From IMG/VR virus record IMGVR_UViG_3300048838_000929, positions 1-45,662 of that record: a stretch of 45,662 nt of DNA; one strand, given 5' to 3'. Shown here piece by piece: positions 441 to 45,662 of this stretch. The DNA comes from a virus. The notes under the pieces are model-generated. The model saw nothing but the letters and a program-made list of their open reading frames with translations. It made no database searches and had not been told where the DNA came from. The position numbers and the translations under genes were made by a program. The first letter of the stretch is position 1, and the number at the start of each line of letters is the position of its first letter.

Positions 441-890
441 TTATTTCGCTGCCATCGCTTCACGAACCGCCGCCGCAATAACCGCGCCGATATCGACAGT
501 TTTTCCGGTCGCACCGTTTCCGCGCCGGGCACGGCGCGTTTCCCATGCTTTCCGCGCACGGCGTGAAGCCTCTTCGGCGGTCGGCTTTTCAAAAATCGGT
601 TTCGCTTTCGCGGTCGGTTCGGGCACGGTCGGCACGGCGGCGGCGGCCGGTTCGGTTTTAATCCGATCGACGATTGCTTTTAACTCCGATTCGAGCCCGG
701 GCACGGCCGCGACCGATTCGAGTTTTTCGATTCGTTCGACGATAGCTTTTAACTCCGCAACGACCGTTTTAATCGTCGTTTCGTTCGTCGTTTCCGCCGC
801 TGCTACTCGCGTTTCGATCGCGCCGATTTTCGCAACGATCGTTTCGAGGGTTTTCGCAAAGATTTCGCCGTCACTTTTTTTCGTGGCCAT
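441..890 (-). CDS. Coiled-coil protein with C-terminal KAWETRR motif
   Basis: 149 aa, function unknown. The start is supported by an ACGGAG SD seven bases upstream, in the same CGAAACGGAG context as the other two island genes. Residues 8-80 look like an alpha-helical coiled coil containing two related segments, ELKAIVERI (46-54) and ELKAIVDRI (69-77). An Ala/Pro-rich linker follows, then the basic KAWETRR motif (114-120) and a short amphipathic C-terminal helix. KAWETRR is shared with the genes at 44409-44543 and 44997-45206, which makes a small island-specific family. The codons are drawn from the island's CpG-rich vocabulary and differ from the phage core. A basic helix after a coiled coil would suit DNA binding or oligomeric scaffolding of the repeat region, but that is inference. 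Confidence 0.75.
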   Translation of the reverse strand: MATKKSDGEIFAKTLETIVAKIGAIETRVAAAETTNETTIKTVVAELKAIVERIEKLESVAAVPGLESELKAIVDRIKTEPAAAAVPTVPEPTAKAKPIFEKPTAEEASRRARKAWETRRARRGNGATGKTVDIGAVIAAAVREAMAAK

Positions 891-19951: not shown

Positions 19952-20943
19952 ATCTGACTCCTGAGCTGAGAGAGGAAAAAGGGAATTTCCTCTGGTGATG
20001 GAAGAATCCGCTGCATCATCTCCGGCGTGCAGAATTCGATGGAAACCTCGTCTTTCTGTACCGGCGACCAGCTCATATAATTATAGAGCCCATCGTGGCC
20101 AAAGTCTTTCATGCGCCAGCCGAATTGCCCTTTGCGCCAGTGATACAGGAAATCCGGATGCTTGCAGCTCGCCACAAATGCGATAAAGGCCTCGCCAGCG
20201 GCAGCAATATGAATCGGGCTGGAATCGTTGGTCACAACGAATTTGCAGCCTTTTAGCAATGCCACCAATTCTGATACAGAAAGCTGATCACGAAGGTCGA
20301 TCACATCATCCCGAACGATCGGCACATATCCCAGGGTTTCATCCACGTTTTTCCCAATCAGGCAAACGTCGAAACCATAAAAATGCAGGCTGTCGATCAC
20401 TGAATTCCACCACTCAACCGGAAACGTCTTCGACTGCCAGTGGCGCCCTGCGTGGACAACAACCAGATTTTGCTTGTGCCTCAGAACATGGTGAATAGGC
20501 GAGCTCGCGTCCAGATCAAATTCTGGAAGGCGAACCTGCTTGGCGGAATTAGGGAGCTGGCAACGTAAAGTGGAAACTGAAATGTAGTCCACGCAATGAA
20601 GCAATGGGTGAGTGTAAAACTCCCAGTTCAGACTTCTGACGGGACGAATCGTATCGAGAACATAGAAATCATTTTCGTCAACTTCCCCTGGTCGATAAGC
20701 ACGGCACGGGAGATGCGAAAAAAGTTCAGGCATATCAGTCTGAATCGAAATCGAAACACTGAGGAAATTCTGGATCGCAAACGCGATAACAGGCTCGGCG
20801 CATACAACGTCACCGAGCCCGCCAGGAAGCTTGAAAAGCCAGCGTTTGTCAGTTCCACGCTGGAGAGCATGAAAGACCCGAAAACTCGGAATCTCCCATG
20901 CAGGAATTGTTGCCTTGTCAGATGGCGTAGGGATTGGGTTCAT
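19948..20943 (-). CDS. GT9 (heptosyltransferase-like) glycosyltransferase
   Basis: 331 aa, close to the family length. Motifs of GT-B heptosyltransferases: WLFKLPGGLGDVVCAEPVI (GGLGD 41-45), VVVHAGRHWQSKTFPVEWW (162-178, like HPGS...KRWP), and VVTNDSSPIHIAAAGEAFI (236-254, the D-S-x-x-x-H-I-A-A nucleotide-sugar site). Family members transfer heptose or related sugars onto LPS core. In a phage it could modify host surface LPS to exclude competitors or decorate the phage's own fibre. Being between the RCC1 tail protein and the lysin, with overlapping ends, it is co-expressed late with the fibres. Confidence 0.85.
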   Translation of the reverse strand: MNPIPTPSDKATIPAWEIPSFRVFHALQRGTDKRWLFKLPGGLGDVVCAEPVIAFAIQNFLSVSISIQTDMPELFSHLPCRAYRPGEVDENDFYVLDTIRPVRSLNWEFYTHPLLHCVDYISVSTLRCQLPNSAKQVRLPEFDLDASSPIHHVLRHKQNLVVVHAGRHWQSKTFPVEWWNSVIDSLHFYGFDVCLIGKNVDETLGYVPIVRDDVIDLRDQLSVSELVALLKGCKFVVTNDSSPIHIAAAGEAFIAFVASCKHPDFLYHWRKGQFGWRMKDFGHDGLYNYMSWSPVQKDEVSIEFCTPEMMQRILPSPEEIPFFLSQLRSQI

Positions 20944-22271
20944 TTCACGTATTCCAGTACCATGATGTTATAGCCGGAATTGTGGCAGATGATTTCGTTT
21001 CCGAATTTCACGACACCAGCTCCGACCGTGATTGCGTAGGAAGTGCCAGGGGTCACGTCCACATATTCTCTTGCCACCGCAATTTTCGAGAAATTTGTGT
21101 CAAAACGCTGGTTGCCAACCATCTGAACTGGCGAACGCTGAATAGTGGTTGTTCCGTTACCTATAGCGCCGTCGAGGTTGTCACCCCAAACCCACAATGT
21201 TCCGTCAGCCTTCAGACCTGCATAGAAAAAATCGCCTGCATTGCAGTGGATAAACGTATGCCCACCTATAACAGCGGTCGGGCTGGAAACCTCCGTGTAA
21301 CCCACATTTCCAACACCCAACTCGCCATCGAGGTCCAAACCCCATGCCCAGGCTGCGCCACTCGAATCCAGGCCAAGGACCATGTTGGATCCGCTCGAAA
21401 TGTGCATCCACGTCGCAGGTCCTGCCACCTGTGTCGGCGTGCTCCGACTCCCGCTGCCAGGAATTCCCAGCTCCCAACTTCCATTGGATCCAGCCGCATA
21501 AAGCGTCCCGTCGTCCGCCAGAAAAAACGATGTGCTGGCGAGGGTGGCGGAAAGCATCTTCCACGTCTTGGCAGGAGTCGTCACCTGCACAGGAGAACTG
21601 CGGGTGGTTGTATCACCGAGGCCGAGCTGGCCGTTTGCGTTGTATCCCCAGCCATAGGCATTGCCAGCCTCACTGATTGCCATGGACCAGTCGGAACCCG
21701 CTTCGACGAATTTAAACTTCAGATTGTTCAGTACACGAACCGGCGTGCTTTTGGCCACGTTCGTCCCATCGCCAAGCTGGTAAGAGCTGTTGTTGCCCCA
21801 TGCCCATAGATAACCGTCCTGGTCGATTCCAAGGCTGTGAGTGCCGCCGCCTGCCACCATTTTGAAACGAACCCCGGTGGCCACCTGAACAGGAAATGAT
21901 TTGTTGGAGCCTGAATTGTCACCAAGGCGACCGTTCAGGCCGGAACCCCATGCCCAGCACCGTCCCTGCTCATCGAGAGCAAAGAAGTGATAGCCACCGT
22001 TTGCCACGCTTTTGAATTTCGGCCAGGGATTTGTGGGAATCACAGGCGAACTTTTCGACGCCGTTGTGCTATCACCCAATTCGCCAGAACCACTGTACCC
22101 CCAAGTCCAGAGCTGCCCGTCCTGCCCGAGAGCTAGCGAGGTTGAAAAACCTGCGCGGATTTTCTGGCTCAATTCCCGTGAATCAAAAACCGAAACCAGG
22201 ACTTTTGTCACGCCGCCTGGAGCTGTCCAGTTGGAATCGGCCGAATACTGCTTGATAATGCGGTTGCTCAT
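20940..22271 (-). CDS. Tail-tip protein with seven RCC1-type propeller repeats
   Basis: 443 aa. Seven repeats of the W-x-WG-x(3-5)-G-x-LG type (for example LWTWGYSGSGELGD, CWAWGSGLNGRLGD, YGWGYNANGQLGLGD, LWVWGDNLDGAIGNG) predict one seven-bladed RCC1 beta-propeller. The flanks are not RCC1: the N-terminus (SNWTAPGGVTKVLVSVFD) and C-terminus (YVDVTPGTSYAITVGAGVV) are the two halves of a Gly-rich phage fibre-tip domain (normally a T-x-PAGVTKV half and a PGTSYxVTVGAGG half). The propeller thus seems inserted where that domain's glycine-rich loops would be. Likely receptor-binding or adhesin-like. Confidence 0.85.
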   Translation of the reverse strand: MSNRIIKQYSADSNWTAPGGVTKVLVSVFDSRELSQKIRAGFSTSLALGQDGQLWTWGYSGSGELGDSTTASKSSPVIPTNPWPKFKSVANGGYHFFALDEQGRCWAWGSGLNGRLGDNSGSNKSFPVQVATGVRFKMVAGGGTHSLGIDQDGYLWAWGNNSSYQLGDGTNVAKSTPVRVLNNLKFKFVEAGSDWSMAISEAGNAYGWGYNANGQLGLGDTTTRSSPVQVTTPAKTWKMLSATLASTSFFLADDGTLYAAGSNGSWELGIPGSGSRSTPTQVAGPATWMHISSGSNMVLGLDSSGAAWAWGLDLDGELGVGNVGYTEVSSPTAVIGGHTFIHCNAGDFFYAGLKADGTLWVWGDNLDGAIGNGTTTIQRSPVQMVGNQRFDTNFSKIAVAREYVDVTPGTSYAITVGAGVVKFGNEIICHNSGYNIMVLEYVK

Positions 22272-42296: not shown

Positions 42297-42887
42297 ATGA
42301 GTGAAGCAGCTATGAGCGCGAAAGGCCTGGAGCATGTGGAGGACATGAAAATCGAGTGGGTTGACCTTGAGGTGGTGAAGGCTTACCACAAAAACCCACG
42401 CAAAAACGACCAGACTGTGGACGAGCTGGCGAAGTGGATTTCCAAGGTTGGCTGGCGTCAGCCGATCGTGGTGGACAAGGACAAGGTGATCGTGGTTGGT
42501 CACACCCGCTGGAAGGCCGCGAAAAAATTGGGCTGCAAGCGTGTTCCGATTCATGTGGCTGAAAACCTCACCAAGGCTCAGATCAAAGCATACCGCATTG
42601 CCGACAACCGGGTACATGAGCTGTCGGAGTGGGAAGGCGATTTACTGAAACAGGAATTGGACGAACTTGTTCAGATGGATTCCCTGTTTGACCTGAATTT
42701 CATGAATTTCAGCCTGCAGGAAATTGACGAAAAGGGAAAGGAGGAATCCTGGGATTTTTCTGAGGTTCAGGACCAGACTGTTATTACGATCACGGTTCCA
42801 TTGGCGAAACAGCCGGAAGTCATGTCCGCATTGAAAAAGGCTGGAATCAGTCAGGAAGAAATTTCGCTCACCAACATCAAGAAGTGA
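42297..42887 (+). CDS. ParB N-terminal domain protein
   Basis: 196 aa from the ATG at 42297 (AAAGG SD). Core motifs: NPRKNDQTVDELAKWI (33-48), RQPIVVDKDKVIVVGHTRWKAAKKLG (54-79) and AQIKAYRIADNRVHELSEW (94-112). This is the ParB/Srx fold as found in phage proteins, often fused to or beside DNA methyltransferases. The HTH and dimerisation domains of chromosomal ParB are missing. The C-terminus (KQPEVMSALKKAGISQEEI) is helical. It may bind nucleotides (CTPase-like) or act as a nuclease; here it precedes a methyltransferase-fold gene. Confidence 0.85.
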   Translation: MSEAAMSAKGLEHVEDMKIEWVDLEVVKAYHKNPRKNDQTVDELAKWISKVGWRQPIVVDKDKVIVVGHTRWKAAKKLGCKRVPIHVAENLTKAQIKAYRIADNRVHELSEWEGDLLKQELDELVQMDSLFDLNFMNFSLQEIDEKGKEESWDFSEVQDQTVITITVPLAKQPEVMSALKKAGISQEEISLTNIKK

Positions 42888-42895
42888 GGCGTGAA

Positions 42896-43771
42896 ATGAA
42901 AGAGAATATCAGGATAGACATAGTTCATCCTCCAGGCAGCAGTGGAATTGGGACTGATGATATTCCTGTGGCGCATGATCTGCCTGAAGTTGCGGAATTG
43001 CAGAAAGAGAAGAAATACAAGCTGAAGCTTCCGCGCGTTGTTCACAAGAAAATCCATATTTCCAAAGAGAACAGTTCTGCGGAGCAGAAGGTGAATCTGA
43101 GGAAACGCATACTTGCAGAATTGGGAGTGGAAAACCCTAGAATTCTTGATGCGTATTGCGCTCATGGTCAAATGTGGAAGACTGCATATGATTCGACTGA
43201 AAACTATGTGGGACTGGATCAGAAGCTTTTCTTTGATGAGCGGAAAACTGTGGTTTGCGACAACACGCGGTATCTCAGAATGGTTGACGTGGACCAGTTT
43301 GATGTATTTGATCTTGATGCGTTCGGCAATCCATTTGAGTGTTTGTATATAATCGTGAATCGTCTGAAATGGAGCAGAACAGATCGTGTGGCTGTATTCC
43401 TCACAGACGGTACTGCGTGGAATGCCAAGCGGAATGCGCAGCCGAAAGGGTTCATGCACTGGCTTGGTGCAGAACACCGCGATAAATCTCAGTATCGGAT
43501 GCGTGATCCATTCATCAAGACTGCGATCATCAAAGCTGCGGAAATCTGTGGTGCCGAGCTTGGGCAGGTGCAGGCGATCATGAAAACTGCTGGATGTGCG
43601 ATGCGGTATATTGGATACGTGATGCACAAAAGTCCAATATCTCAGATTTCAGCGGAAAAAAATGAGACGGAAAACGGTGGAATCAGTGTTTCCGAGGAAA
43701 CGTCTCAAAAACCGCTGATTTCTGCGAACGTGTCAGAAATCACGGATCCAAAAGAGCTGATTTACAAATAA
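42896..43771 (+). CDS. Trm1/TcmP-like methyltransferase-fold protein
   Basis: 291 aa from the ATG at 42896 (GAGG six bases upstream). Class I SAM-dependent methyltransferase layout: motif I-like ILDAYCAHGQMWKTAYD (83-99), an acidic strand end VGLDQK, then VVCDNTRYL, and a motif IV-like FDVFDLDAFGNPFECLY (135-151), similar to the D-x-DPFGSP of Trm1 tRNA guanine-26 methyltransferases and to the DPFG of 'three-Cys-motif partner' (TcmP) proteins. The usual catalytic Pro is replaced by Ala in DLDAFGNP. AVFLTDGTAWNAKRN follows. It reads towards the island and, across it, the DUF5131 gene. Substrate unknown. Confidence 0.65.
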   Translation: MKENIRIDIVHPPGSSGIGTDDIPVAHDLPEVAELQKEKKYKLKLPRVVHKKIHISKENSSAEQKVNLRKRILAELGVENPRILDAYCAHGQMWKTAYDSTENYVGLDQKLFFDERKTVVCDNTRYLRMVDVDQFDVFDLDAFGNPFECLYIIVNRLKWSRTDRVAVFLTDGTAWNAKRNAQPKGFMHWLGAEHRDKSQYRMRDPFIKTAIIKAAEICGAELGQVQAIMKTAGCAMRYIGYVMHKSPISQISAEKNETENGGISVSEETSQKPLISANVSEITDPKELIYK

Positions 43772-43948
43772 ATGCAGATTTTCTGCAAAATGGTTGTTTC
43801 ACGCCAGTTCCACGAACAGCGGAAATCACGAAAAACCGCTGATTTTGGACTTTTCTGCAGAGAAAACACACAAAATCACGGTATTTTTGGAATGATGCTT
43901 GCATAAAAATGTCAACCTGCAAAAACTCATCGCTGCATGGCATCCGGC

Positions 43949-44252
43949 TGTCGAATAGTTTGACAGTCGGGTGTCGCCTCGGTTTCCACCGTCAAGTTTT
44001 TAGACAGCGCATCGGGCACGGTATATGCCGCTATATGAGGCCATATATGGCGCCTATATTGGCTTATACGGCGGCCTAATCGGTCGGTTAATACCGATAT
44101 GGCCGATAGGGTTCGGCTCGATCGGCGGGCTGATTTGCGGCCTTAAAACCCGGGTGCCCGCCAACGTGATTTCATTTGGAATTTTCGGCACGAAATCTTT
44201 CACGCGGTAAGGCTGTCGATTAAATAGACGGTCGGTGTCCGGTCGCTTGACG
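43949..44252. promoter_or_regulatory. Cluster of TGTC-N9-GAC(A/G) sites at the right island border
   Basis: TGTC-N9-GACA at 43949-43965; CGTC-N9-GACA at 43990-44006; TGTC-N9-GACG at 44214-44230 and again at 44236-44252 (22 bp apart). Between them lies a TATATA-rich stretch (about 44017-44057). This mirrors the left border, where the same sites (1136-1171) flank TATATA tracts. The interval contains a 61-codon open frame (44025-44210) without an SD that I do not accept as a gene. Confidence 0.55.
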
Positions 44253-44408
44253 GTCGATGGGGTTCGCGCGTGCGCGTATCGTTGCCGGTCGTTCGTCGTT
44301 CGTTGGGGTTCGATTCGTATCGGCGGCGGTCGATGGGGTTCGGTCGGGGTTCGATCGGCGGTCGGCACAGTGGAAAAACCCGCCATTCCCTCGGCGGTTT
44401 TTCGATTC

Positions 44409-44543
44409 TTACTCGGCGGATTTTTTCCGCGTTTCCCATGCTTTCTTCGCGGCGGCCGATCGTTTCGCTTTCTTCGCCTCATCGTTCGCGCGGCGGGTTT
44501 CCCAAGCTTTTTTCGCGGCGGTAACATTTTTTTCGTTTTTCAT
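44409..44543 (-). CDS. Two-copy KAWETRR mini-protein
   Basis: 44 aa; start at the ATG at 44543, seven bases after CGGAG; another ATG at 44549 is too close to the SD. The protein reads as a short leader (KNEKNV) and two copies of AAKKAWETR(R/K) at about 9-18 and 31-40, very basic and probably all-helical. The start KNEKxV-AAKKAW is shared with the gene at 44997-45206. DNA encoding the first motif is part of a 22-bp exact repeat with that gene (44483-44504 and 45017-45038). Role unknown; nucleic acid binding is plausible. Confidence 0.65.
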   Translation of the reverse strand: MKNEKNVTAAKKAWETRRANDEAKKAKRSAAAKKAWETRKKSAE

Positions 44544-44996
44544 TTTCATTCTCCGTTTCGATTTCGTTTCCGGCGAACCGTTCGCCGTTCATATAAAGCT
44601 TATCGGTCGATCGGCGGAAAACTTTAGGCCGATACGAAAATTTTTTTCGGTAAGATTTTGAACCGGGGTTCGGGTATCGTCGGCCGGTCGGTGCCCGGTC
44701 GCGCGGCGGTCGTATCGTCGGCCGGTCGCACGGAGCACGGTTCGCCGATCGGGAAACGGCCGCGCGGTTCGATCGGCGGCCGGGGTTCGATCGGTCGGCC
44801 GGGTTCGGCGGTTCGATCGCACGGCGGCCGGTTTCCGGGCATCGCATCGGGGTTCGGCGCGGCGGTCGGTGCCCGGTCGCACGGTCGGCCGATCGGCGGC
44901 GGCCGGGTTCGGCATCGGTGCCCGGAGCACGGCGGCGGTTCGGCCTGAAACGAAACGGCCGGAAATTTTTCCCGGCCGCTCGATTAAATTCGACGA
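44544..44996. other. Island sequence without a supported gene
   Basis: Composed of TCGG, TTCGG, GCACGG and GCCCGG words. Long open frames appear on both strands, but they are Arg/Pro-rich products of the vocabulary, without SDs, and are rejected. No hairpin with a T-run was seen except the GC-rich inverted words common to the region. Confidence 0.55.
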
Positions 44997-45206
44997 TTAA
45001 CCCGCGATCAACACGGCGTTCGCGCGGCGGGTTTCCCACGCTTTATAAGCCGCCTCGCTCGCTTTCGCCGCACGCTTATTTTCACGAATCGTTTCCCACG
45101 CTTTCAACGCCGCCGCGCGGGCTTTTTCACGGCGCTTATTTTCACGAATCGTAACCCAAGCTTTTTTCGCGGCCAAAACCATTTTTTCGTTTTTCATCGT
45201 TTCCAT
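44997..45206 (-). CDS. Three-copy KAWETRR repeat protein
   Basis: 69 aa; the ATG at 45206 follows CGGAG (a CGTTT microsatellite precedes it on the plus strand). After an 11-residue leader come three 20-residue units: AAKKAWVTIRENKRREKARA, AALKAWETIRENKRAAKASE and AAYKAWETRRANAVLIAG. The repeat is also visible in DNA: a 20-bp word recurs at 45073-45092 and 45133-45152, exactly 60 bp apart. Highly basic and helical. Together with the one-copy (441-890) and two-copy (44409-44543) proteins it forms a series. Function unknown. Confidence 0.7.
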   Translation of the reverse strand: METMKNEKMVLAAKKAWVTIRENKRREKARAAALKAWETIRENKRAAKASEAAYKAWETRRANAVLIAG

Positions 45207-45535
45207 TTTTTTTCTCCGTTTCGTTTCGTTTCGTTTCATCGTTTCACAAGATATATAATGCAGGCCGCGTGCCGCACGGGTTTCACGGAGTTATTAGGCG
45301 GTTAGGGAAAACGGTCGGTGCCTAAAGACTTGACGGCAAAAGGTAATGATATGGCGAAATGCGGTCGCAAACCCGCGCCGTGATTAGGGTGCCGGGATTT
45401 CGACAGCGACTAATCGTTAGGCGGTTCGCCGGGGTTCGTCGGCTTATATATTCGGCCGGGGTTCGATCGGTGCCGGTCGGCCGGTCGGTGCCCGGGGTTC
45501 GGGGTTCGGGGTTCGGGGTTCGATCGGTTCGGGCA
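45207..45535. other. Island sequence next to the array, no supported gene
   Basis: Contains (CGTTT) repeats (about 45215-45239), ATATATAATG near 45250, two TTAGGCGGTT words (about 45293 and 45416), and further on the G-quadruplex motif at 45494-45518. Several short open frames lack start signals. AT-rich spots and G-rich repeats next to the CGGT array would fit an origin, but nothing proves it. Confidence 0.5.
45494..45518 (+). other. Perfect G-quadruplex motif (GGGGTTC)n
   Basis: GGGG at 45494-45497, 45501-45504, 45508-45511 and 45515-45518, separated by TTC each time: four G4 tracts with uniform 3-nt loops, predicted to fold as a very stable intramolecular quadruplex. It lies 18 bp before the CGGT array on the G-rich strand. 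Confidence 0.85.
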
Positions 45536-45662
45536 CGGTCGGTCGGCGGTCGGTCGGTCGGTCGGTCGGCGGTCGGCGGTCGGTCGGTCGGTCGGTCGGT
45601 CGGTCGGTCGGTCGGTCGGTCGGTCGGTCGGTCGGTCGGTCGGCGGTCGGTCGGTCGGTCGG
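45536..45662. repeat. 127-bp terminal direct repeat (copy of 1-127)
   Basis: Parsing both ends into CGGT and CGG units gives the same series (2, 5, 1, 16, then four CGGT and a final CGG), so 45536-45662 is identical to 1-127. The copies are direct, not inverted. A length of exactly 127 equals a common maximum k-mer size of short-read assemblers, so this is best read as the overlap of a circular assembly path, giving a true length of 45,535 bp. A biological terminal redundancy of this size is the less likely alternative. Confidence 0.93.

Follow-up and report, generated by a model that had tools for sequence, protein, structure and literature searches.

The viral record and its CpG-rich island

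The window, by which we mean the whole stretch of DNA analysed here, corresponds to the whole of one virus record in IMG/VR (45,662 bp). Phage genes are present in it for a terminase, a portal protein, a head protease, a tape measure protein, RecT and a DUF3799 nuclease-like protein. The record is classed as linear, and both of its ends lie inside one CGGT array, which occupies positions 1-191 and 45536-45662 in the same orientation. The genome is therefore probably circular or permuted and was broken within the array by the assembler. On this reading the CpG-rich island described below begins near position 43,900, crosses the array and ends near position 1,130.

The island is cryptically simple DNA in which short repeats are abundant. 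Over its two parts (43900-45662 and 1-1130), the dinucleotides TG, CT and AG are scarce and CG occurs at about twice the expected frequency. This signature is graded: it peaks in the array and fades roughly symmetrically over about 1-1.7 kb on either side, whether the DNA is coding or not. The likelier cause would be a process centred on the array, rather than an import of foreign DNA. Palindromes of the form TGTC-N9-GACA were observed at both edges of the island (at 1136, 1155 and 43949, with weaker ones at 44214 and 44236) and at only one other position in the record (25870), and near-copies within the island have GACG in place of GACA. The palindromes look like operators of one regulator.

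One side of the island is flanked by a DUF5131 gene (1191-2087), the product of which has a weak rSAM_mob_pairA match and does not carry the repeat unit that is the subject of this study. On the other side, the gene at 42884-43771 (295 aa) contains a stretch that by eye resembles the start of a SAM-methyltransferase, and its product matched no Pfam, PHROGs or NCBIfam family. A search for close relatives of the phage, by which the genes might be dated, gave no useful one: identity of the terminase relatives did not exceed 42%, a single relative by DUF5131 reached 53%, and none was found for the 42884-43771 gene. The island DNA had no match among annotated phages, and none of the 11 matches of island words in other viral contigs had the island signature.

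Three small genes carry all six units of the record

As originally predicted, three genes of the island encode proteins in which a basic unit, AAxKAWETRR, occurs once, twice and three times, and all three open reading frames translate accordingly. A unit profile of 21 positions, built from 39 units, was run over the whole record and agreed with these copy numbers. It found exactly six units in the 45.7 kb, all of them in the island and all on the minus strand, which is the strand that had been assigned to the three genes.

The two-copy gene (44409-44543, minus strand) encodes 44 aa with a net charge of +9 and a pI of 10.4. Its unit 1 lies at 44466-44525 (profile E 3.1e-9) and its unit 2 at 44406-44462 (E 5.1e-7), the latter match extending over the stop codon. 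The three-copy gene (44997-45206, minus strand) encodes 69 aa with a net charge of +10 and a pI of 10.6, and has unit 1 (KAWVTIRE) at 45120-45179 (E 1.0e-7), unit 2 (KAWETIRE) at 45060-45119 (E 4.0e-8) and unit 3 (KAWETRRAN) at 45012-45062 (E 1.6e-9). Both proteins are thus strongly basic and are made of little but the unit. The one-copy gene (441-890, minus strand) encodes a protein of 149 aa with a helical N-terminal half and a proline-rich linker, followed by the unit (RARKAWETRRAR; 516-566, E 1.7e-5). The one-copy protein gave a structure model of low confidence (pLDDT 56). The three-copy protein was modelled by AlphaFold as one helix spanning residues 2-68 (pLDDT 87), the input being a single sequence rich in A, K, E and R, of a kind for which AlphaFold tends to give a helix whether or not there is one.

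As a null test, the profile was rebuilt without the window's own units and was run on 1000 Markov-simulated islands of the same composition. The best scores in the simulations were 10-12 bits, with a maximum of 12.2, and the best unit of every gene scored above this (17.6-29.2 bits). The units of the two-copy gene scored 29.2 and 23.3 bits, those of the three-copy gene 28.9, 17.6 and 7.3 bits (the weak one being unit 1), and the unit of the one-copy gene 17.6 bits.

The start context that the three genes had been said to have in common was also confirmed. The sequence AAACGGAG is located 7-8 nt before all three starts on the minus strand, at 44551-44558 for the two-copy gene (start codon 7 nt after it), at 45214-45221 for the three-copy gene and at 899-906 for the one-copy gene. 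It is also found upstream of phage genes outside the island (20940-22271 and about 2174-2491), which identifies it as a translation signal of the phage itself, as opposed to a mark of the island.

Local duplication and coding selection

Both repeats on which a birth by duplication had been proposed were recovered. The three-copy gene contains a tandem repeat at 45031-45164 (2.2 copies, 81%), in which two 60-bp repeats (45031-45150, minus strand) are 80% alike. The 22-bp exact match between the two-copy gene (44483-44504) and the three-copy gene (45017-45038), which encodes WETRRAN on the minus strand, was longer than any exact match in simulated pairs of islands (at most 18 bp). Also common to the two genes are a leader of 27 nt (85%) and 43 nt of DNA for the N-terminus (88%). 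Up to the TGG codon, unit 1 of the two-copy gene is identical over 19 bp to its counterpart in the three-copy gene, a match that the first reading of the sequence had missed, and from the TGG codon onward it is identical over 22 bp to unit 3. The 19-bp match before this codon and the 22-bp match after it indicate that the three-copy gene corresponds to unit 1 with two 60-bp copies inserted after TGG. These alignments give good support to a paralogy of the two genes, which differ by an insertion of 2 x 60 bp at one point. A link of the one-copy gene to this series by duplication is weakly supported, by an exact match of 18 bp with unit 2 of the two-copy gene, also missed at first, of a length that occurred in 0 and in 4 of 1000 simulations. 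The proposed origin by repeat duplication thus holds for the two larger members of the series, and weakly for the one-copy gene.

An absence of coding selection had been named in advance as a result that would speak against the prediction; what was observed was an excess of third-position changes. Pairwise differences among the six unit cores numbered 13 at the first, 18 at the second and 52 at the third codon position, and pN/pS was below 1 in 14 of the 15 unit pairs; as the pairs are short and mutually dependent, both measures are support and not proof. The synonymous bias of the three genes (0.61-0.71) is the island's own, where phage codons would be expected to give 0.45-0.51 for these proteins, so the genes have evolved within the island for some time. 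They also lack Gln, His and Cys.

In other phages, the codon similarity of units was 0.35 within one phage and 0.34 between phages, while the amino acids were kept. As the codons of units within a phage are no closer than those between phages, selection or old ancestry, and not recent copying, accounts for the constancy of the unit's amino acids in those phages. Recent copying of unit DNA inside a phage was consequently ruled out for those phages, and was kept as an explanation for this window.

The unit is an end-tag on unrelated phage proteins

A search with the AAxKAWETRR DNA pattern detected 41 other stretches, on viral contigs, in which the unit lies in an open frame. Since the core is fixed by the pattern, its conservation is in part built in; the position of the unit in the protein, the company that it keeps and the variety of its codons are not. 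The unit-carrying proteins include clamp-loader AAA proteins, RadC, a tyrosine integrase, NUMOD3 proteins, an ATP-dependent DNA ligase and an ADP-ribosyltransferase; this last and many proteins of unknown type are without a known DNA role. In 30 of the 39 ORFs listed, some of which are interrelated, a unit starts within 30 residues of one of the protein ends, and it is C-terminal on the clamp loaders of several phages. Some phages have the unit on several unrelated proteins; in one (G034), five different proteins, including a clamp loader and a DNA ligase, bear it terminally or close to an end. AAxKAWETRR is a reusable end-tag on many unrelated DNA-handling phage proteins and is not specific to the array.

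Multiple copies were also found elsewhere. A DUF5131 protein on a bacterial contig (L086:1814-3373) has three KAWETRR-type units at its C-terminus. On two viral contigs with differing upstream genes, the same 46-aa three-unit protein is encoded directly upstream of TnpB (OrfB_IS605, Cas12f1-like), at L071:2370-2507 and at about L073:6663-6803 (minus strand), and together with TnpB the three-unit gene may form a mobile cassette of two genes. The unit is rare in cellular genomes: the two-unit pattern occurred at one locus in a collection of 84,980 species, and the unit profile matched in one of the 294 genomes of the phylum that holds this locus.

Known families gave no counterpart. Searches of the three proteins against Pfam and PHROGs (and of the one-copy protein against NCBIfam) returned only chance-level or coiled-coil-type matches, and PHROGs gave no match for the tandem proteins of L071, L065 and L087. 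Relatives of the one-copy protein were absent from viral contigs and annotated phages; tblastn with the two- and three-copy proteins in phages, and with the three-copy protein in plasmids, also gave none, these sequences being too short and divergent. Searches of the PDB by sequence and by unit profile gave no relative, and a literature search for KAWETRR and its variants gave no relevant match.

The genes had been thought to occur only beside the array, and thus perhaps to encode proteins that bind it, with scattered homologues lacking such arrays as the finding that would count against this. Such homologues are what was found, on unrelated viral contigs. Not even (CGGT)4 was present in any of the 39 unit-bearing viral records, the 21 viral records that contain a (CGGT)9 array were all without a unit (at E 0.001), and at none of the other loci examined near a unit was the island dinucleotide signature as strong as here. 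The association with the array was seen in this record only, and the claim of a tie to the array is not supported and is dropped.

Possible function of the unit

We give roughly even chances to the unit being a portable, basic, nucleic-acid-binding helix that was multiplied here by local duplication, the tandem copies having a dose effect; helix, binding and dose effect are what we infer. In favour of this reading are the net charges of +9 and +10, the modelled helix of the three-copy protein and the DNA-handling enzymes among the carriers of the unit; against it are the Glu and Trp of the unit, the tagged proteins that have no known DNA role, and the negative searches for a solved relative and for profiles of DNA-binding families. 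Each unit would be a helix that binds nucleic acid weakly and largely independently of sequence. At the end of an enzyme it would tether that enzyme to DNA, while the proteins made only of tandem units (two- and three-copy) would coat or bridge DNA with an affinity that depends on copy number. In this phage the two paralogues arose one from the other by local duplication in the repeat-prone, CpG-saturated island, and duplication inside the island would explain their place beside the array without array-specific binding. More broadly, AAxKAWETRR may be an uncatalogued end-tag that brings replication, repair and mobile-element proteins to a common target, either phage DNA or a shared partner, with tandem proteins that tune or cross-link by copy number; we think this plausible, if a little more doubtful than the nucleic-acid-binding helix.

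The main rival to a nucleic-acid-binding helix is a docking tag for a putative common protein partner, such as a clamp, SSB or a host factor, for which the tandem proteins would be scaffolds or decoys. The five different tagged proteins of G034, clamp loader and ligase among them, and the C-terminal units on clamp loaders of several phages are in keeping with docking. However, tandem proteins that are nearly all unit fit nucleic acid better, as do Lys/Ala-rich neighbours (L048, L106) and the place of the unit among NUMOD3 motifs in L049, and we consider docking a rather unlikely reading, albeit a serious one. A mobile cassette of which the small genes are a leftover or helper part is suggested by the three-copy protein directly before TnpB in L071 and L073, by the DUF5131 fusion with three copies in L086 (DUF5131 being of the radical-SAM mobile-pair type) and by the DUF5131 gene that flanks the island here, with its weak rSAM_mob_pairA match. 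That gene is untagged, though, and no TnpB or homing endonuclease was found among the window's searched genes; one nearby pair is thin evidence, and this origin appears improbable.

Specific binding of the CGGT array or of the CpG-rich island, for example in a segregation or packaging complex, would agree with the basic character of the proteins, with the presence of genes and array together in this record and with the absence of units outside the island. Set against this are the counts of the other viral records in which array and unit occur together (0/39 and 0/21) and the finding that no other locus examined near a unit has as strong an island signature, and we rate such binding as improbable, like the cassette. 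Least probable of all is that the ORFs are by-products of repeat-rich, compositionally odd DNA and encode no functional protein. Such ORFs might be expected in an island that is cryptically simple and rich in short repeats, and the genes do share its synonymous bias and lack three amino acids. Yet the amino acids of the unit match those in proteins of unrelated phages written in other codons, island-like random DNA never came near the unit scores, differences are concentrated at third codon positions, and one shared, well-placed start context precedes each of the three genes.

Should the tag bind DNA or a common partner, phages would have in it a cheap means of recruiting unrelated enzymes (clamp loader, ligase, integrase, a TnpB neighbour) to one place, and its presence would then give a clue to what many phage proteins without annotation do. 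The 1-2-3 series offers a clean natural set in which copy number could be compared with affinity.

Comparison with known systems

Replication proteins are known to have short docking tails, such as the PIP box and the C-terminal tail of SSB. KAWETRR resembles these as one short, mostly terminal motif on several replication proteins of a genome, and differs from them in being basic and in forming stand-alone tandem proteins. AT-hooks and histone-H1-like basic tails are portable, basic and repeated, and are appended to proteins or stand alone; KAWETRR shares all of this, but has a fixed Trp and Glu, has no GRP core and is predicted to be helical and not extended. Its Glu and Trp also set the unit apart from a simple polybasic tail.

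In the homing endonuclease I-TevI, the extended DNA-binding end includes a helix that binds the minor groove (PMC1564403). NUMOD3 (PF07460) and the minor-groove helix of I-TevI-type enzymes are, like the unit, short, basic, helical and repeated end-modules in phage mobile genes, and KAWETRR units co-occur with NUMOD3 in L045 and L049 (with L082 just below the cut-off), whereas KAWETRR units are also found on replication proteins and alone. None of the three proteins matched the NUMOD3 model, even at E values as high as 10, nor did profiles of other DNA-binding families match them. The KER domain of CAF-1, a single long helix with abundant Lys, Glu and Arg, is an example of a lone helix able to bind DNA, for which it needs both its positive charges and its helical form (PMC10335832). 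The three-copy phage protein would be similar in form if it is the one 67-residue helix of its single-sequence model; KER is eukaryotic and without a KAW unit, no sequence relation is claimed, and DNA binding by the phage protein is putative. Both parallels to the phage helix are offered as analogies.

CGGT arrays of several other viral contigs were also seen to have a recurrent neighbour. In L010, L014, L016, L023, L026 and L027, an array of (CGGT)9-12 is followed by a common element, approximately CGGTCAAGG-N20-TGTCAA, beside varying genes. By its appearance, this element is a mobile or regulatory piece that these contigs share.
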